64,000 nt of DNA. Origin: Microbacterium sp. Its GTDB lineage: Bacteria; Actinomycetota; Actinomycetes; Actinomycetales; Microbacteriaceae. The DNA is taken from assembly GCF_017305435.1 (NCBI RefSeq), contig NZ_JAFKIP010000008.1:123216-187215 (forward strand), read 5' to 3'. Positions 15,293 through 58,335 of this stretch are shown in pieces (within the stretch, counting starts at the first letter, position 1; every line of letters starts with the position of its first letter). The translations under genes and the position numbers were made by a program. The notes under the pieces are model-generated. The model ran no database searches, was not told the DNA's origin, and worked only from the letters and a program-made list of their open reading frames with translations.

Positions 15293-15298
15293 TATGCT
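15293..15298 (+). promoter_or_regulatory. Probable -10 box of the glyA transcript
   Basis: TATGCT lies about 7 bases before the first base of the riboswitch, the expected place for a sigma-70-type -10 element. No clear -35 box is visible. Confidence 0.5.
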
Positions 15299-15302
15299 CG
15301 CT

Positions 15303-15376
15303 GTGTCGCGACTGGCGTTGAGGTGGGACACCACCGGGGAGCGACCACATGGCAATCGACCGTACGCCTGGGTCGG
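15303..15376 (+). promoter_or_regulatory. ZTP (pfl) riboswitch upstream of glyA
   Basis: The leader contains the invariant parts of the pfl motif in order: TCGCGACTGGCG (15306-15317), the GTGGGACACCACCGGGGAG hairpin (15323-15341), GCGACC closing the first stem, and after a short linker CGCCTGGG (15365-15372), which forms the pseudoknot and ligand site. The class senses ZTP/ZMP, which builds up when 10-formyl-tetrahydrofolate is short, and turns on one-carbon genes such as glyA and folD, exactly the genes downstream. Confidence 0.92.
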
Positions 15377-15378
15377 CC

Positions 15379-15420
15379 GTGGTTTCGATACACCGCCGCT
15401 GCGCGGCGGCACTCAACCAC
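15379..15420 (+). promoter_or_regulatory. Expression-platform hairpin of the ZTP riboswitch
   Basis: GTGGTT (15379-15384) pairs with AACCAC (15415-15420), and CCGCCGC (15393-15399) pairs with GCGGCGG (15403-15409). The hairpin sits between the aptamer and the glyA ribosome site AGGAG at 15431. There is no T-run, so control could be by terminator or by access to the ribosome site. Confidence 0.5.
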
Positions 15421-16727: not shown

Positions 16728-16800
16728 CCGCGAGACCGCATTGGTGCGCCGAGACTGCACGCACCGGCCGCAGTCTCGGCGCACCACTGAAGTCTCGCGG
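16728..16800. repeat. Nested inverted array, 19-bp period (CGAGAC core)
   Basis: CGAGAC with a following GCA occurs at 16731 and 16750, and inverted GTCTCG copies are at 16773 and 16792, again 19 bp apart. The inner arms of 17 bp (16742-16758 with 16770-16786) and outer arms of 9 bp (16728-16736 with 16792-16800) are all perfectly complementary, with a 5x5 internal loop. It lies between glyA and folD, 35 bases before the folD start, so in RNA it forms a strong hairpin within the operon. Confidence 0.8.
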
Positions 16801-25983: not shown

Positions 25984-26753
25984 TCGATGACTCCCATCGG
26001 CCCGAAGTCGGCGCGGACCTCGTCTCCGGCCGACACCCACATCGGGCGGGTGAACGACCCGGCGAGGATGATCTCGCCGGCTTCGAGTCTGGCACCGTGC
26101 CGCGCGAACGTGTTGGCGAGCCACGCGACACCCGTCGCGGGGTGGCCGAGGACACCCGCCGCGACACCGGTCTCCTCGATCTCGCCGTTGCGGCTGAGCA
26201 CGCCGGGCACCCAGCGCAGGTCGATCTCGTCAGGGCGCTTGTGCACGTCGCCCAGGACCATCGCGCCGTAGGCGGCGTTGTCGCTGATCGTGTCGACGAT
26301 CGTGCGGCCCTCGAGCTCGATGTGCGAGTTCAGTACCTCGAGCGCCGGGACGGCGTAGTCGATCGCGGCGAGGGCGTCTTCGAGCGTGCAGTCGGGGCCC
26401 TCGAGCGCCGTGCGAAGCACGAACGCGAGCTCGACCTCGATCCGCACGTTCGAGAAGTGGCTCGTCGGGATGGTGTCGCCGGAGCGGTAGACGGTGTCGT
26501 CGAACATGACGCCGTAGTCGGGCTCGGTGATGCCGGTCGCCTGCTGCATCGCCTTGGACGTCAGCCCGATCTTGCGCCCCACGAGGGTGCGGCCCGCCGC
26601 GATCATGCGGTCGCGCCACACCCCCTGGATCGCGTAGGAATCCTCGATCGTGGCATCCGGATACCGCGCCGTGATCCGCGGGATCACGGAGTGTGCGCGG
26701 TCGGCTTCGGCGAGCTCCTCGGCGATCGAGGCGATCTGCGCGGGGGTCAACAT
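25968..26753 (-). CDS. hpaH: 2-oxo-hept-3-ene-1,7-dioate hydratase
   Basis: 261 residues, usual for HpaH/MhpD hydratases. It adds water to the product of HpaG to give the HpaI substrate. [23 protein letters not shown] (the Glu-x-Glu metal pair) and [12 protein letters not shown] are the family motifs. The ATG at 26753 matches the family start; the 13 extra residues from 26792 fall in a repeat array and are rejected. The next gene upstream is 157 bp away, across that array. Confidence 0.9.
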
Positions 26754-26783
26754 GTGCGTCCGGTCGCTGCCGGCGAGGCATCC

Positions 26784-26877
26784 ATGTCCCACATCTGGCT
26801 GGTTTCGCGCCGCCAGACCAGCCGTTTATGGGACATTCTCCGCACCAAGTGGGACATTCTCCGTACCGAGTGGGACG
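26784..26877. repeat. TGGGAC array, 21-bp period, inside the hpa operon
   Basis: An inverted copy TGTCCCA at 26785 is followed 44 bases on by TGGGAC at 26829, 26850 and 26871, exactly 21 bp apart. ATGTCCCA (26784-26791) pairs with TGGGACAT (26829-26836), and GGCTGGT (26797-26803) with ACCAGCC (26817-26823), leaving a 5x5 internal loop. The spacing is identical to the array at 48829-48922. It lies between the dioxygenase and hydratase genes. Confidence 0.8.
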
Positions 26878-26910: not shown

Positions 26911-28077
26911 TCACAGCTGGTGGCCCAGCTTGTATTCGCCCTGCTTCCACTCGGGCATGGATGCCTCGCCCTCGTCCGCACGCGTGTAGCTGAAGCCGTC
27001 CGCGCCGATCGTGACGGCCATCTCGCTGTCGTCGGTGCGGGCGACCACGGGCTGCGGGTTGCCGTCGAGGTCGAGCACGAGCGATGCGTCGGTGTACCAC
27101 GACGGGACGACGGGGTTGCCCCACCAGTCGCGGCGCTGGTTGTCGTGCACGTCCCACGTGACGACCGGGTTGTCGGGGTCGCCGGTGTAGTAGTCCTGCG
27201 TGTAGATCTCGACCCGGTGGCCGTCGGGGTCGCGCAGGTACAGGTAGAACGCGTTGCTCACGCCGTGGCGGCCGGGGCCGCGCTCGATGGCATCCGACCG
27301 GCGGAGCGCGCCGAGCTTGTCGCAGATCGCGAGGATGTTGTGCTTCTCGTGCGTCGCGAAGGCGACGTGGTGCATGCGCGGGCCGTCTCCGCCGGTCGCG
27401 GCGGTGTCGTGCACCGTGGGCTTGCGGCGCAGCCACGCGGCGTACACGGTGCCCGCCTCGTCCTGGATGTCCTCCGTCACGCGGAAGCCGAGGTCCTGGT
27501 AATGGCGCACGGCGCGCGGCACATCGGGGGTGACCTGATTGAAGTGGTCGAGCCGGACGAGCTCACCCGGCGTGTGCAGGTCGTAGCGCCAGCTCAGGCG
27601 CTCGACGTGGGTCGTCTCGAAGAAGAACTCGTACGGGAAGCCCAGCGGGTCCTCGACGCGCACCGAGTCGCCGATGCCCTTGACGAACCCCTCCGGGCGG
27701 CGCTCGACGCGGCATCCCAGTTCCGTGTAGAACGCGACCGCGCGGTCGAGGTCCTCCGCCGAGCGCACGCGGTAGCTGAACGCCGCGACCGCCGCGACGG
27801 GACCCTTGCGGAGCACGAGGTTGTGGTGGATGAACTCCTCAGTGGAGCGCAGGTAGATCGCCTCGTCATCCTCTTCGGTCACGTACAGTCCGAGCACGTC
27901 GACGTAGAAGGTGCGGGATGCCGCGAGGTCGGTCACCACGAGCTCCATGTACGCGCAGCGCAGGATGTCGGGCGGGGAGGACTGCGGGGTCGTCACCGGG
28001 TCGTCGGAGTGGATGGGCGCCTCGGCGCTCACGTAGTAGCCCGACGAGGTCAGGGTCATGTTGTCGCGACTGGTCAT
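26911..28077 (-). CDS. hpaD: Homoprotocatechuate 2,3-dioxygenase (3,4-dihydroxyphenylacetate 2,3-dioxygenase)
   Basis: 388 residues, close to the Brevibacterium fuscum enzyme, a type I extradiol dioxygenase with two vicinal-oxygen-chelate domains. The metal ligands are readable: His in RLDHFNQVTPD, His in MHHVAFATHEKHNI and Glu in HRVEIYTQDYY. It opens the ring of homoprotocatechuate next to the hydroxyls, giving 5-carboxymethyl-2-hydroxymuconate semialdehyde for the dehydrogenase encoded upstream. The ATG at 28077 has AAGGA upstream. Confidence 0.92.
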   Translation of the reverse strand: MTSRDNMTLTSSGYYVSAEAPIHSDDPVTTPQSSPPDILRCAYMELVVTDLAASRTFYVDVLGLYVTEEDDEAIYLRSTEEFIHHNLVLRKGPVAAVAAFSYRVRSAEDLDRAVAFYTELGCRVERRPEGFVKGIGDSVRVEDPLGFPYEFFFETTHVERLSWRYDLHTPGELVRLDHFNQVTPDVPRAVRHYQDLGFRVTEDIQDEAGTVYAAWLRRKPTVHDTAATGGDGPRMHHVAFATHEKHNILAICDKLGALRRSDAIERGPGRHGVSNAFYLYLRDPDGHRVEIYTQDYYTGDPDNPVVTWDVHDNQRRDWWGNPVVPSWYTDASLVLDLDGNPQPVVARTDDSEMAVTIGADGFSYTRADEGEASMPEWKQGEYKLGHQL

Positions 28078-28108: not shown

Positions 28109-28170
28109 GCCGAGTGTCCAAGACACGCGGAGCGCGGGTGGCGCGGGTCGGCGTGTTCTGGACACTCGGC
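28109..28170. repeat. 20-bp inverted repeat between hpaE and hpaD
   Basis: Arms 28109-28128 and 28151-28170 match at 18 of 20 positions, with a perfect GCCGAGTGTCCA/TGGACACTCGGC part and a 22-bp loop. It lies 32 bp upstream of the dioxygenase start, in the operon. Confidence 0.7.
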
Positions 28171-46494: not shown

Positions 46495-48021
46495 ATGACG
46501 AGCGCGATCGTCGTCGGGGCGGGTTCGTCCGGCTGCGTCGTCGCACGGCGACTGGTGGATGCCGGGGTGACCGTCACCCTCTTCGAAGCCGGCGGTGAGG
46601 ACACCAACCCCGCGATCCACGACCCCATGCGGATGGGCGAGCTGTGGCACAGCGCGGACGACTGGGACTACCGCACCGTGCCGCAGGAGCACGCCGCGAA
46701 CCGACGGCTGCATCTGCCGCGCGGGAAGGTGCTGGGCGGATCGCACGCGCTCAACGCGATGATCTGGGTGCGCTGCGCTCCACAGGACTTCGACCACTGG
46801 GTGTCGCTCGGCAACGTCGGGTGGGCGTGGGAGGACGTCCTTCCGGTCTACCGCGACATCGAGACGTTCTCGGGGGGCGCCTCCGAGCTGCACGGCGACA
46901 GCGGCATCCTGCCCGTCACCGACGACTACGCGCTCTCGCCGATCCAGCAGTCGATCATCGACGCGGGCGTCGAGGAGGGCCTCGAGCACAACGCCGACTA
47001 CAACGGCGATCACCTCGACGGCATCTCGCAGCAGCAGATCACCGTGCGCGGAGGGCGGCGGGCGAACACGTGGACCGAGTACCTGAAGCCCGTGCGCGAC
47101 CGACTGGACATCGAGACCGGATGCCACGTGCACTCGGTGATCGTCGAGGGCGGCCGCGCCGTCGGCATCCGGTACCGCCAGGGCGGTGCCGACCTCGAGG
47201 CGCGCGCCGATGTCGTCGTGCTGAGCGCGGGCGCGCTGGACTCCCCGGCGATCCTGCTGCGATCGGGCATCGGTCCGGCGGCCGACCTCGACGCGCTCGG
47301 GATCGATGTCGTCCGCGACGCGCCGGATGTGGGTCGCCATCTGCACGACCACCTGCTGTCGCCCGTCATCTTCACGACGACCGCGAAGCCCGTCGGCGCG
47401 CCGACGCCCGGGGTGTCGGTGACACAGACGCACCTGTTCTGGAAGTCGCTGCCCGAGCTCGAGGTGCCGGACACGCAGCCGATCAACTTCTCGGTCCCGA
47501 TGTACGGCGAGAACCTCGAGCCGGTGTCGGACGACGGCTTCTCGCTGATGGCGGGGATCGTCACGCCGAAGAGCCGCGGCACGCTGACTCTCAGCGGCCC
47601 GGGGCTCGACGATCCGATCCAGATCGATCTGCAGGCGCTCGCCGACCCCGACGACGTCCGTTCGCTCGTGGCATCCGTGCGCCAGTGCCGTTCGATCGGA
47701 CGCCGCCCGGCCCTCGCCGAGGAGTGGGGCGCCGTCGAGGTGTACCCCGGTCCCGACGTGTCCGACGATGATCTCGAGGACCACGTGCGCCGCACCGTCG
47801 CGACCTACCACCACCAGGTCGGCACGTGCCGGATGGGCGTCGACGACGAGGCCGTGGTCGACCCCCGCCTGCGGGTGCACGGCATCGACGGCCTCCGCGT
47901 CGTCGACGCGTCGATCATGCCGCGCATCACGACGGGCAACACCAATGCGCCGGCGGTGCTCATCGGCGAGCAGGGTGCGCGCTTCCTGCTCGAGGACCTC
48001 GGCGTGTCCGCGTCGGTGTGA
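46495..48021 (+). CDS. GMC-family FAD alcohol oxidase/dehydrogenase (choline-dehydrogenase-like)
   Basis: 508 residues. The FAD fold starts with IVVGAGSSGCVVARRL (5-20), then HLPRGKVLGGSHALNAMIWV, the GMC signature, and VVVLSAGALDSPAILLRSGIGP. The active-site His region is in YHHQVGTCRMG, and TTGNTNAPAVLIGE closes the fold. It would oxidise an alcohol to the aldehyde used by the dehydrogenase encoded 3 bases upstream. The end overlaps the SDR start (GTGA). Confidence 0.9.
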   Translation: MTSAIVVGAGSSGCVVARRLVDAGVTVTLFEAGGEDTNPAIHDPMRMGELWHSADDWDYRTVPQEHAANRRLHLPRGKVLGGSHALNAMIWVRCAPQDFDHWVSLGNVGWAWEDVLPVYRDIETFSGGASELHGDSGILPVTDDYALSPIQQSIIDAGVEEGLEHNADYNGDHLDGISQQQITVRGGRRANTWTEYLKPVRDRLDIETGCHVHSVIVEGGRAVGIRYRQGGADLEARADVVVLSAGALDSPAILLRSGIGPAADLDALGIDVVRDAPDVGRHLHDHLLSPVIFTTTAKPVGAPTPGVSVTQTHLFWKSLPELEVPDTQPINFSVPMYGENLEPVSDDGFSLMAGIVTPKSRGTLTLSGPGLDDPIQIDLQALADPDDVRSLVASVRQCRSIGRRPALAEEWGAVEVYPGPDVSDDDLEDHVRRTVATYHHQVGTCRMGVDDEAVVDPRLRVHGIDGLRVVDASIMPRITTGNTNAPAVLIGEQGARFLLEDLGVSASV

Positions 48022-48776
48022 GTGCCCCCGTGAGTGCCTTCCGACCGGGCCTGTATGCCGGCAAGGTCGCGGTCGTCACGGGCGGGACGTCCGGGATCGG
48101 CGCCGCCGTCGCGATCGTGCTCGCCGAGCTGGGCGCGACCGTCCATGCGGTGGGGCTCGGGGTGGAGCGCGGCGTGGAGCGCGCGCAGTTCCCGTCCGAG
48201 CTCGCGATCACGGTGGACGAGCTGGATGTCACCGACGATGCGGCAATGACCGCGCTGTTCGCCGGTCTCGATCGGCTGGACGTGTTCGTGCCCGCGGCGG
48301 GCATCAGCCTGGGGGAGCGCGAACTGGAGTGGGACTCGTTCCAACGGGTGGTGCAGATCCAGCTGCTCGCGGTGTACCGCGGCATCCAACTGGCTCGCCC
48401 GCTCCTGGCCCGCGCGCACGGCTCCGTCGTCACCATCGCGTCGATGTACGCGACGTTCGGGGGTGGGGAGATCGCCGCCTACTCGGCCGCCAAGGGCGGG
48501 ATCGTGCAACTCACGAAGTCGCTCGCCGAGGTGTATGCCGCAGACGGCATCCGCGTCAACTCCGTCGCGCCGGGGTGGATCGACACACCGCTCCTGGAAG
48601 CGCTCAAGAACGATCCCCGTATCCACGAGAGGCTCCTCTCGCGCACGCCGCTCGGACGCTACGGCGACCCGCGCGAGGTGGGCGAGGCGGTCGCATTCCT
48701 GGCGTCGGATGCCGCGGCGTTCGTCACCGGAGCGGTCCTGCCCGTCGACGGCGGCTACCTCGTCGTCGGCATCTGA
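48018..48776 (+). CDS. Short-chain dehydrogenase/reductase
   Basis: 252 residues. The NAD(P) motif TGGTSGIG is at about 20-27, DVFVPAAGISLGE replaces the usual NNAG, and the catalytic Tyr-x-x-x-Lys is in IAAYSAAKGGI. The GTG at 48018 gives a 4-base overlap with the GMC gene; a second GTG at 48030 would lose four residues. The third step of the operon is probably an alcohol or ketone oxidoreduction, but the substrate is unknown. Confidence 0.88.
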   Translation: MSAPVSAFRPGLYAGKVAVVTGGTSGIGAAVAIVLAELGATVHAVGLGVERGVERAQFPSELAITVDELDVTDDAAMTALFAGLDRLDVFVPAAGISLGERELEWDSFQRVVQIQLLAVYRGIQLARPLLARAHGSVVTIASMYATFGGGEIAAYSAAKGGIVQLTKSLAEVYAADGIRVNSVAPGWIDTPLLEALKNDPRIHERLLSRTPLGRYGDPREVGEAVAFLASDAAAFVTGAVLPVDGGYLVVGI

Positions 48777-48828: not shown

Positions 48829-48922
48829 ATGTCCCAGAAGTGGTCGTTTGGAGCGCCCTGAACCAGCTGTAAGTGGGACGAGGTCTGCCCCGAGTGGGAC
48901 GACGCCCGCCGTAAGTGGGACG
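48829..48922. repeat. TGGGAC array, 21-bp period (second copy)
   Basis: TGTCCCA at 48830 is followed 44 bases on by TGGGAC at 48874, 48895 and 48916, the same 44-21-21 spacing as at 26784-26877. The intervening bases differ between the two loci except for scattered matches. It lies between converging genes (SDR and amidohydrolase). Confidence 0.8.
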
Positions 48923-48953: not shown

Positions 48954-50612
48954 TCAGCTCTCGTCGGCGCGGTAGACGACTCGGCCGGCGAACCACGTCT
49001 CGAGCACCCGACCGTCGATGATCTCGTCGGGGGAGCCGGCGATCACGTCGCGATCGAGGACGACGAAGTCCGCGGACTTGCCGACGGCGATGCTGCCGGT
49101 CTCGGCATCCAGCCCCATCGCCCGCGCCGCGTTCACGGTGAATGCCTCGAGGGCCTCCTCCGCGGCGATCGCCTGCTCGAGCCACAGGGTGCCCGCGGCA
49201 CGGCGCAGCGGGTCGGCGCGCGTGACGAGACCCTGGATGCCCTCGAGCGGGTTCGGGGACTCGCTGACCGGCCAGTCCGAGCCGCCAGCGACGAGCCCGC
49301 CGGTGTCGATGATCGCGCGGTTGGGCTGGGAGTGCCCCGCGCGGTCGTCGCCGAGTGCGTCGGCGAGGGCCTGCGGGATGACGCCCGGGAACCAGATGAA
49401 CGGCGAGATGTCGGCGGCGACGCCGAGCTGCGCGAGGCGAGGGATGTCCTCGCTCGCGAGGAACTGGCCGTGCGCGATCTGGAACCTCGCATCGGCGAAC
49501 CCCTCGCCCCGCAGCCGCTCGACCGTGTCGAGCAGCAGCCGCGCCGACCCGTCGCCCGTGCAGTGCACCTTGGCGCCGAGTCCTCGCTCGGCGACGGCGC
49601 GCAGCCACGTGTACAGCTCGTCGCCGCTCATCGTCGTCGTACCGCGGAAGTGCGCGCCGTGCGCCTCGTCGGGAACGTACGGATCGAGGAACAGCGCCGT
49701 CCGCGCCGGCGGCACCCCGTCGAGGAAGATCTTCACGAAGTCGGGGCGGTGATGCGTCGTGCGGAAGCGCTCGCCCAGCTCGACGAGCGGCTGTCCGACC
49801 GGTTCGAACCCGAAGATCTCATCGTTGATCGTCAGACTCGACACGACCCAGGCGTCGAGCTCCCCGTCCTCGTCGAGCCCGTGCAGGGCGGCCAGGATCT
49901 CCGCCGACACGGCGGCGTCCTGGAAGGCGGTCACGCCGAAGCCGTTCAGCAGCTCGACGCCCCGGGCGCTCGCGCGGCGGTGCTGGTCGGCCGTGAGCGC
50001 GCCTTCGCGCGCCTGCGCATGCGCCACGGGGATGCCGGCGGCTTCGAGCAGGACGCCCGTCGGCTCGCCGTCCTCGGGGTCGAGGAGCGTCACACCCTCG
50101 GCGGGGAGCGTCGCGGCGGAGATCCCGGCGAGCTCGAGCGCGCGCGAGTTCGCCCAGCGGTTGTGGTGGCTGTCGTCGGAGAGGACGACGGGGCGGCCGC
50201 CGGATGCCTCGTCCAGTCGACGCCGTATGGCGGATGAGTTCAGCTCGTCCATGAGCGTGCTCGCCCAGGAGCCGCCCGTCACCCAGGCATCCGCCGGCAG
50301 TCCGGCGGCGTGCGCGCGCACACGCTCGAGGATCTCGTCCAGCCCGAGCGCGGTGCCGAACGACAGTTCGTACAGGTCGGTGATCCCCGCGATCGCATGG
50401 TGGTTGTGCACGTCGACGAACCCCGGATACAGCGCCGCGCCGCCGAGGTCGTGCACCGCCGTACCCGCTCCGCGGTGGGCGGCGAGCACGTCGGCCGCGG
50501 CGCCGACGGCGATGATGCGCCCGCCGGTGACGGCGACCGCCTCGGCGAGGGGCCGGGCGCGATCGGCCGTGCGGACGACCCCTCCGACGAAGACGACGTC
50601 GGCATCCGCCAT
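48954..50612 (-). CDS. YtcJ-type amidohydrolase
   Basis: 552 residues, the usual size for the Amidohydro_3/YtcJ group. YPGFVDVHNHHA carries the metal His pair, HCTGDGSARLLLD and IAHGQFLASEDI further metal ligands, and GSDWPVSESPNPLEGIQGLV the last Asp. These enzymes hydrolyse C-N bonds in diverse amides; the substrate is not predictable. The ATG at 50612 lies 2 bases after the stop of the MoaF-like gene, so the two are coupled. Confidence 0.88.
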   Translation of the reverse strand: MADADVVFVGGVVRTADRARPLAEAVAVTGGRIIAVGAAADVLAAHRGAGTAVHDLGGAALYPGFVDVHNHHAIAGITDLYELSFGTALGLDEILERVRAHAAGLPADAWVTGGSWASTLMDELNSSAIRRRLDEASGGRPVVLSDDSHHNRWANSRALELAGISAATLPAEGVTLLDPEDGEPTGVLLEAAGIPVAHAQAREGALTADQHRRASARGVELLNGFGVTAFQDAAVSAEILAALHGLDEDGELDAWVVSSLTINDEIFGFEPVGQPLVELGERFRTTHHRPDFVKIFLDGVPPARTALFLDPYVPDEAHGAHFRGTTTMSGDELYTWLRAVAERGLGAKVHCTGDGSARLLLDTVERLRGEGFADARFQIAHGQFLASEDIPRLAQLGVAADISPFIWFPGVIPQALADALGDDRAGHSQPNRAIIDTGGLVAGGSDWPVSESPNPLEGIQGLVTRADPLRRAAGTLWLEQAIAAEEALEAFTVNAARAMGLDAETGSIAVGKSADFVVLDRDVIAGSPDEIIDGRVLETWFAGRVVYRADES

Positions 50613-50614
50613 GG

Positions 50615-51451
50615 TCAGCGCTCCAGCGCCCGCGACGGGTCGAACTCGGCCGGGTGGACCGTGTTCGAGAGCAGACGCCCGTGGGCGCCGAAGGTGAAGT
50701 GCGTCGGCGTCGCCGCGGCACCGTCGCCTTCGCCGAACAGCACGCCGTGCGAGCGCAGTGCGCGCTGATCGCGGTGGTCGGCGATCGTCACGGATCCGCA
50801 GGGGATCACCTTCTCGCGCCACGTGAAGACGTAGATGCCCGGGCGCACGCGCCAGACGGTGTTCTCGTCGGTGTCGGCGAGACCCTGCTCGGGACCGGCG
50901 AGGCACTGCCAGGTGTACCAGTGCGGCGACAGGTAGACGTGCTCGTACGCGTGCTCGCTCGAGTACACCCAGAGCACGCGACGTCCGATGAGCTCGCTCG
51001 TCGGGGCGGGCGCGTCGCCGTGCTGCTCGAGCTCCTCGATGCGCGAGACGCCGAACAGGTGCTGCACGGCGACGTGCTCCGAGGTCTTCTCGCCGAGGAC
51101 GCTCAGGACGGCGAGGGCGTAGCCGCTGCGGAGGTCGAGGATGAGCGAGACGGCCTCGTTCGGCAGGTAGTCGTGGTGGAACTGCGCGTAGTACAGGTCG
51201 TCGTCGACGCGGAAGACCTCGCACGCATCCGTCTGCGCGGCGGCCGCGGTGGGGTCGGATGCCCCGGGCCGGTAGTCCCACGCGACCGCACCGGCCGAGA
51301 AGGTGTGCGCGATGCGGGTGCCGCGATCGTCGACGAGGGTGAAGGTGCGGCCGTCGAGATCGCCGGTCACCTCCGCCTTGGAGGCGTCGAAGCCGGGTGC
51401 GAGGCCGTCCAGCGGCAGCCAGGTGGACGTGTCGGACAGGTTGACGGTCAT
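50615..51451 (-). CDS. MoaF-family protein (first copy)
   Basis: 278 residues. The N-terminal half (about 25-120) and the C-terminal half, with RRVLWVYSSEHAYEHVYLS and WYTWQCLAGPEQGLADTDE, follow the two-domain MoaF family, calycin-like beta barrels. Databases often label the family molybdenum cofactor biosynthesis, but Klebsiella moaF was described in monoamine-inducible gene control. No molybdenum gene is nearby. The GGAGACCCC before the ATG sets the start at 51451. A paralogue lies at 60001-60828. Confidence 0.82.
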   Translation of the reverse strand: MTVNLSDTSTWLPLDGLAPGFDASKAEVTGDLDGRTFTLVDDRGTRIAHTFSAGAVAWDYRPGASDPTAAAAQTDACEVFRVDDDLYYAQFHHDYLPNEAVSLILDLRSGYALAVLSVLGEKTSEHVAVQHLFGVSRIEELEQHGDAPAPTSELIGRRVLWVYSSEHAYEHVYLSPHWYTWQCLAGPEQGLADTDENTVWRVRPGIYVFTWREKVIPCGSVTIADHRDQRALRSHGVLFGEGDGAAATPTHFTFGAHGRLLSNTVHPAEFDPSRALER

Positions 51452-52979: not shown

Positions 52980-53061
52980 CGTGGTGGCTCCTTCGCCGAG
53001 GTCGGGTTCGACCGGGAGTGCCCGCGTCCGCGGCACCGGACGCGGGCGCGCCCTGCACAGA

Positions 53062-53105
53062 TTGTGCGCCGCACGCCGACGCCGCAGTTGGCGTACGGCG
53101 CACAA
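53062..53105. repeat. 16-bp dyad between divergent permease and SDR genes
   Basis: Arms 53062-53077 and 53090-53105 (starting TTGTGCGCCG and ending CGGCGCACAA) match at 15 of 16 positions around a 12-bp loop. As it lies between divergent promoters, it could be an operator as well as a hairpin. Confidence 0.65.
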
Positions 53106-53194
53106 CGGTGTTTCCGGAGCGCAGACCGCGGCATCCGCCCGGCGTCTGCGCGGCAGGATGACGGCGAGGGCGAAGACGCCCGGGAGGACGAGCG

Positions 53195-58278: not shown

Positions 58279-58335
58279 GGGGTGGCCTGCGCACCTGCAC
58301 ACCGGTGTGCGGGCCACCCCGATGTGCAGGTGCGC
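58279..58335. repeat. Interleaved inverted repeats (pseudoknot-like order)
   Basis: GGGGTGGCC (58279-58287) is complementary to GGCCACCCC (58312-58320), while GCGCACCTGCACA (58289-58301) is complementary to TGTGCAGGTGCGC (58323-58335). The order A, B, A', B' is that of an H-type pseudoknot, not of nested stems. A local palindrome CACACCGGTGTG (58298-58309) competes. It lies between the binding-protein gene and livH. Confidence 0.75.

Follow-up and report, generated by a model that had tools for sequence, protein, structure and literature searches.

A family of dispersed, polar palindromes in Microbacterium and the predicted nuclease gene bracketed by its copies

The window analysed here, a 64,000-nt stretch of a Microbacterium sp. 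contig, carries two copies of a polar repeat. Copy 1 consists of a 51-bp palindrome at 26785-26835 (+ strand), which forms its head, followed by a tail of two direct 21-bp TGGGAC units at 26836-26877 (+), and copy 2 of a 51-bp palindrome at 48830-48880 (+) with a tail of two direct 21-bp units at 48881-48922 (+). Copy 1 lies in surroundings that the earlier note named hpa, between a gene without a Pfam match at 1e-5 beside its head (26230-26781, - strand) and a glyoxalase/dioxygenase-family gene whose stop codon faces its tail (26911-28077, -). A short-chain dehydrogenase gene (47826-48776, +) and an amidohydrolase-family gene (48954-51281, -, ORF start approximate) converge on copy 2. The earlier note had described these sites as one TGTCCCA, at 26785 and at 48830, followed by TGGGAC at +44, +65 and +86, which is exact for both. 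On the + strand of the window, the spacings of TGGGAC within 120 bp of TGTCCCA are solely 44, 65 and 86, each found twice, and the window shows no excess of TGGGAC by itself (28 observed vs 33 expected). The statement that the bases between the motifs are largely different stood only in part: the two 93-bp arrays are identical at 56 of 93 positions, so that the filler is partly constrained.

A genome-wide search, as the earlier note had proposed, recovered many more copies (40 and 42 strand matches for the two patterns) in the host genome (G000; 3.50 Mb, 10 contigs). TGGGAC-N15-TGGGAC was found 40 times, against none for the reversed-pattern control, and TGTCCCA-N{25,50}-TGGGAC 22 times on the forward and 20 times on the reverse strand, against 0 and 1 for its reversed control; every one of the latter matches among those listed measured 50 bp. 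These spacing controls rule out a chance origin of the spacing. When one mismatch was tolerated, 25 distinct copies could be gathered where only two loci had been claimed. In each copy, the first half of the array is an imperfect 51-bp palindrome, TGTCCCA-N37-TGGGACA, composed of two inverted 21-bp half-sites around a 9-bp centre (21-9-21), and is extended on a single side by 1-3 direct 21-bp units, to which the +65 and +86 motifs belong. The arms read TGTCCCA-n5-GG-(CT/TC/TT)-G, the inner pair being CT in 27, TC in 18 and TT in 5 of the 50 arms. Among the 44 tail units the usual sequence is YGTCCCACTT-nn-GG, without the inner subsite of the arms; most share CTTnnGG. Total length is constant among the copies of this genome and all of them are polar. 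Given this constant length, something probably reads the motif at a fixed phase, as had been suggested. The accompanying view that the arrays are unlike a copied repeat was not borne out: they belong to a dispersed family of diverged copies whose inner sequence is partly conserved.

The copies are intergenic in 24 of 25 cases, despite a coding fraction of 0.92 in the window; these placement counts rely on gene calls by a home-made codon scorer. Eleven of the 24 lie between convergent genes, 13 between co-directional genes and none between divergent genes, as compared to 9 convergent, 36 co-directional and 9 divergent spacers in the window (Fisher p = 0.011 for the convergent excess and 0.05 for the lack of divergent placements). 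In 10 of the 13 co-directional spacers the tail points towards the stop codon of the upstream gene.

The host genome contains a second palindrome family, AGTGTCCA-N38-TGGACACT, represented by 14 copies, all of 54 bp (control 0), one of which lies in the window at 28113-28166 (listed without strand). Two more strong palindromes of the window, at 16739-16789 and 53061-53106, resemble one another in their outer parts (TTGGTGCGCCG and TTGTGCGCCG) and may represent a third family; a further strong palindrome is located at 58289.

Outside the window, two copies of the TGTCCCA element enclose a single gene (C5:108061-108972), with the palindromes inside and the tails outside. Its neighbours, read by eye, resemble pfkA and an oligopeptidase gene. 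The same layout with outward tails was found in G080, a gene enclosed by palindromes without tails in G031, and one copy on either side of the gene in G047 (locus L130). An initial guess that the palindromes were IS481-type ends was dropped, the bracketed gene not being a transposase. The protein of about 304 aa gives an AbiEi match over residues 15-151 (PADLOC, E 8.1e-8), as do the homologues at L091 (E 5.9e-4) and L330 (E 1.9e-13). Pfam yields no AbiEi match for the own-genome protein, and AbiEi_4 appears below cut-off in 3 of 6 proteins of a second DUF559 subfamily. At the C terminus, REase_MTES_1575 (PF18741) scores below the Pfam cut-off in 14 proteins (14.5-36.6 bits vs 38.2). DUF559 (PF04480) is above cut-off in L091 and in all six second-subfamily proteins tested; the own gene, four own paralogues, L092 and L093 score below it or are unlisted. 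A structure model built on the L130 protein, which is 84% identical, reached a mean pLDDT of 93.6. Its best PDB match is the catalytic domain of I-Bth0305I (3r3p; E 0.04, Foldseek probability 1.00, TM 0.79 on target), and no PDB match was obtained at E 0.001 or better. The C-terminal domain is thus a predicted Vsr/EDxHD-type nuclease with a weak fold match. Residues E198, D231, E242, D244, G245, R246, H248, Q254, D258 and R261, among others, are invariant in an alignment of 56 proteins chosen from the 80 homologues described below. No Y1 transposase was detected among the Pfam, PADLOC and fold-search matches, which pointed to AbiEi and REase/Vsr instead.

Homologous loci were then compared, 80 being kept of 130 confirmed relatives. 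The 51-bp TGTCCCA pattern (at most 2 mismatches) occurs on both sides of the gene in 31 of the 80 and on one side in 10 more, and all of its matches across the 80 loci are located within 700 bp of the gene. Other homologues are accompanied by palindromes with different ends (TGTCTCA, TGTCGCA, AGTGTCCA, GGTCCAGG and, in Rathayibacter, CTCCAGAAGTTGTCGTA). Ten loci with insufficient flank were left out of a comparison of the left and right flanks; in 61 of the 70 usable loci, the similarity exceeded that of all 66 far controls (median 63.5 vs 27), and in 9 it did not. The same limit was passed by 4 of 207 gene-sized window blocks taken as a further control. When the upstream flank of each locus was compared with all 70 downstream flanks, its own ranked first for 24 loci and among the top three for 38. 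Palindrome and protein similarity were furthermore correlated in a Mantel-type test, uncorrected for shared ancestry (rho 0.44, null maximum 0.17 in 300 permutations, n=65, five loci with short sequence or stops being left out). Since the upstream flank of one locus was compared with the downstream flank of another, this correlation is not simple synteny. By segment, rho was 0.47 (residues 61-120), 0.44 (residues 121-190), 0.30 (nuclease part) and 0.27 (front part). The strongest correlation, shared ancestry included, thereby falls in the middle, AbiEi-like region and points to this region as the putative reader of the palindrome.

Nine matches to the family profile were found in the host genome, five with clear private repeats on both sides and four without; three of the 14 second-family copies flank one of the five (G000:C4:247866-248726). 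Two neighbouring half matches at G000:C6:145681-146641 are perhaps one frameshifted paralogue. Among 149 congeners, 40 carry the TGTCCCA pattern, with a maximum of 85 copies in G056, and the supposition that other cores with the same spacing exist was borne out by relatives in which different cores share the ends and the spacing. A gene at E<=1e-79, a cut that we set ourselves, is present in 19 of 23 congeners with at least 3 copies vs 31 of 126 others, and in 23 of 27 with at least 2 copies vs 27 of 122 others; as gene-flanking copies were counted too, this co-occurrence is partly built in. The exact palindrome of the TGTCCCA pattern is missing from 21 of the 50 genomes with a close gene, and G011, G106, G114 and G136 have 4-10 copies each and no close gene. 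In eight genomes, 22 of 37 dispersed cores taken from the matches listed were best matched, counting ties, by the flank of the genome's own gene; within the same set, the test failed in G047 (none of 5 outright) and in G108 (none of 2). In a phylum sample, 52 of 296 genomes gave a profile match at 1e-15. Of 29 loci sampled from genus to phylum (1 from the same genus, 2 from the same family, the rest farther), L349 was excluded for having only 178 bp of one flank. Flank similarity reached at least 42 in 17 of the 28 usable loci and in none of 28 controls; in several of the 17, the repeats are direct or inverted and form no clear palindrome. A half-palindrome pattern taken from the gene of one of these loci was found in the distant genomes G311 (10 times) and G257 (9 times), counts that include the copies at the gene, and once or twice in each of four others (control 0).

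Conservation of the spacing at orthologous spacers as such, which the earlier note would have predicted, was not found: among the hpa loci of 24 relatives, TGTCCCA elements are present in G006 only. The hpa spacer is compact and without the element in seven congeners (G002, G005, G008, G011, G014, G015, G022), which also speaks against the denial of a copied repeat. In nine others (G007, G010, G012, G013, G016-G020) it contains different palindromes or repeats as judged by eye, and the remaining seven loci were left unclassed (G001, G004, G009, G021, G150, G153, G154). The hpa-spacer repeats matched the flanks of the genome's own nuclease gene in 2 of 10 genomes (G017, G012), the full flank being missing for 3 of 4 G016 genes and for some in G006 and G018; those of G006 matched the nuclease gene of another genome instead. 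The palindromes in the hpa spacers of G020 and G013 (L220, L224) differ in their outer arms and share the inner GGACAATCGGGG...GTCCCCGCTCTTGTCC; they did not match the nuclease genes found in those genomes. At the second window locus, no element was detected in the loci of seven relatives, and the dehydrogenase side was non-syntenic in the four checked; none of the relatives examined there offered a comparable spacer. Visual inspection of the aligned spacers revealed no target-site duplication; their sequences diverge too far for a junction to be placed exactly.

The sites of the gene itself are few. Of the 80 nuclease genes, 74 occupy three chromosomal sites, and the gene is therefore not visibly hopping often; the pfkA site has 23 genes oriented one way and 15 the opposite way. 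Among 22 genomes, the pfkA site contains no gene in 7, a close homologue in 5, a member of the second DUF559 subfamily in 7 and something else in 3, and in the seven gene-free sites 12-169 bp separate pfkA from the oligopeptidase gene. Five of the seven second-subfamily genes at pfkA have a flank similarity of at least 42. By eye, the arms at four second-subfamily loci (L361, L364, L366, L368) apparently hold two direct GAACAGG/ATCAGG-like units each, about 17 bp apart, a layout that parallels the 21-bp units of the TGTCCCA elements. The spacers are used repeatedly and the gene is mostly resident.

Could the element act as RNA or as a single-stranded hairpin, that is, as a terminator, an mRNA stabiliser or a REP for an HUH transposase? 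It is palindromic and lies behind genes, in convergent and co-directional spacers, as such a role would have it. However, the inner positions of the two arms pair about as often as column composition alone would predict, both in family 1 (254/450 vs 250.7) and in family 2 (166/266 vs 171.3). The arms thus vary independently and the hairpin is not the conserved feature. The fixed total length and the one-sided direct units also speak against a hairpin, as does Rfam, which at gathering score gave a single match in the whole window and none at the element; we regard this explanation as very unlikely. That single match is a ZMP/ZTP riboswitch at 15298-15380 (58.5 bits). Constant length and phase without arm covariation fit two half-sites that would be read by a protein. 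Binding to 23-bp inverted repeats within the promoter of its own gene is described both for AbiEi of Streptococcus agalactiae and for a homologue from mycobacteria (PMC7319586). The S. agalactiae protein binds two of them 3 bp apart (PMC7319586), an arrangement (23-3-23) close to the 21-9-21 layout of the palindromes described here.

This likeness, together with the copy upstream of the nuclease gene and the N-terminal AbiEi match, is what favours the main rival, an operator-only model. In that model the protein would act as an autoregulator of the AbiEi type, or as a defence nuclease, with the palindromes serving as its operators; the scattered copies would make up a regulon or would have been dispersed passively through recombination, and the nuclease would mobilise nothing. 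Most of the 70 loci nevertheless have a matching copy downstream of the gene, for which an operator would have no use. None of the 24 intergenic copies lies between divergent genes, the expected place of regulatory sites, and the copies at the hpa spacer are species-specific. We consider this model unlikely, if still deserving some weight. The least probable explanation in our estimation is that the palindromes terminate a conventional insertion sequence or MITE served by an unrelated transposase, the nuclease gene being a passenger. The copies that end the gene-bearing unit of about 1.2 kb do resemble terminal inverted repeats and the unit is found in both orientations beside pfkA, but one nuclease family recurs throughout, the palindrome sequence changes along with the gene, and no target duplication was noticed (by eye, in divergent spacers).

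The observed anatomy, dispersal, gene-matched brackets and differences between species are, we think, probably those of a system resembling REP/RAYT that works with a different enzyme, in which a dispersed polar element is paired with an AbiEi-like/Vsr-like nuclease. From comparison of sequences, we infer that the nuclease protein binds, cuts and spreads the element. The AbiEi-like part would bind each 21-bp half-site as duplex DNA, two of them inverted in the palindrome and further ones in phase along the tail; the nuclease domain would cut at or near half-sites; and repair or transposition-like copying of palindrome and tail would seed the spacers behind genes. As the gene stays mostly at few chromosomal sites, it resembles a resident or domesticated enzyme, like RAYTs for REPs.

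REP/RAYT systems (REPtrons, TIRtrons), as far as the consulted part of PMC3733652 describes them, likewise combine species-specific intergenic palindromes in tens of copies with a resident gene enclosed by the same palindromes, TIR-bracketed variants included, and a gene bracketed by a dispersed, species-specific palindrome is what we found here. In contrast to REP/RAYT, the enzyme is AbiEi-like and Vsr/REase-like instead of an HUH/Y1 tyrosine transposase, the palindromes are about 50 bp long with 21-bp tail units, the arms do not covary in the two own-genome families, and the ends are TGTCCCA, AGTGTCCA and others, with no GTAG (or CGTC). As three defining features of REP/RAYT are absent, we do not class the system there, although it would work alike. 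With the EDxHD/Vsr-like homing endonuclease I-Bth0305I it may have the predicted nuclease fold in common (weak match at E 0.04); unlike in that case, the nuclease gene is enclosed by its own palindromes, of which many copies are scattered. It shares with AbiEi antitoxins of type IV toxin-antitoxin systems the N-terminal part, recognised by PADLOC, and differs from them by the C-terminal nuclease domain and by sites scattered across the genome. The C-terminal domain also resembles that of the MTES_1575/DUF559 Pfam families. The protein that bears the name MTES_1575 is a large fusion of HEPN, helicase and Vsr parts (PMC3710099), whereas the protein described here has about 300 aa and gene-matched flanking palindromes, repeats that the consulted part of that paper does not mention.

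No description of such a palindrome-nuclease system was found among the papers that the literature searches listed. We tentatively propose, at rather less confidence than the REP/RAYT-like reading itself, that it may constitute a separate selfish class, widespread in actinobacteria, in which an AbiEi-type reader joined to a Vsr-like nuclease would spread its own duplex palindromes and co-diverge with them, each paralogue having a private family. Such a system would provide a likely enzyme and a reading rule for orphan intergenic palindromes of actinobacteria, a function for proteins annotated merely as DUF559 or endonuclease-domain proteins, and many natural pairs of reader and matched site for decoding DNA specificity; the spread of short repeats without a classical transposase would become testable.

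Two Microbacterium-like nuclease loci (L132 and L180) come from records that bear the names Stenotrophomonas maltophilia and Planococcus sp., which may reflect contamination or misnaming. Additionally, palindromes arranged in tandem, with a period of 63 or 115 bp, were observed beside the gene or elsewhere at L143, L145, L158 and L179 and in places of G056.
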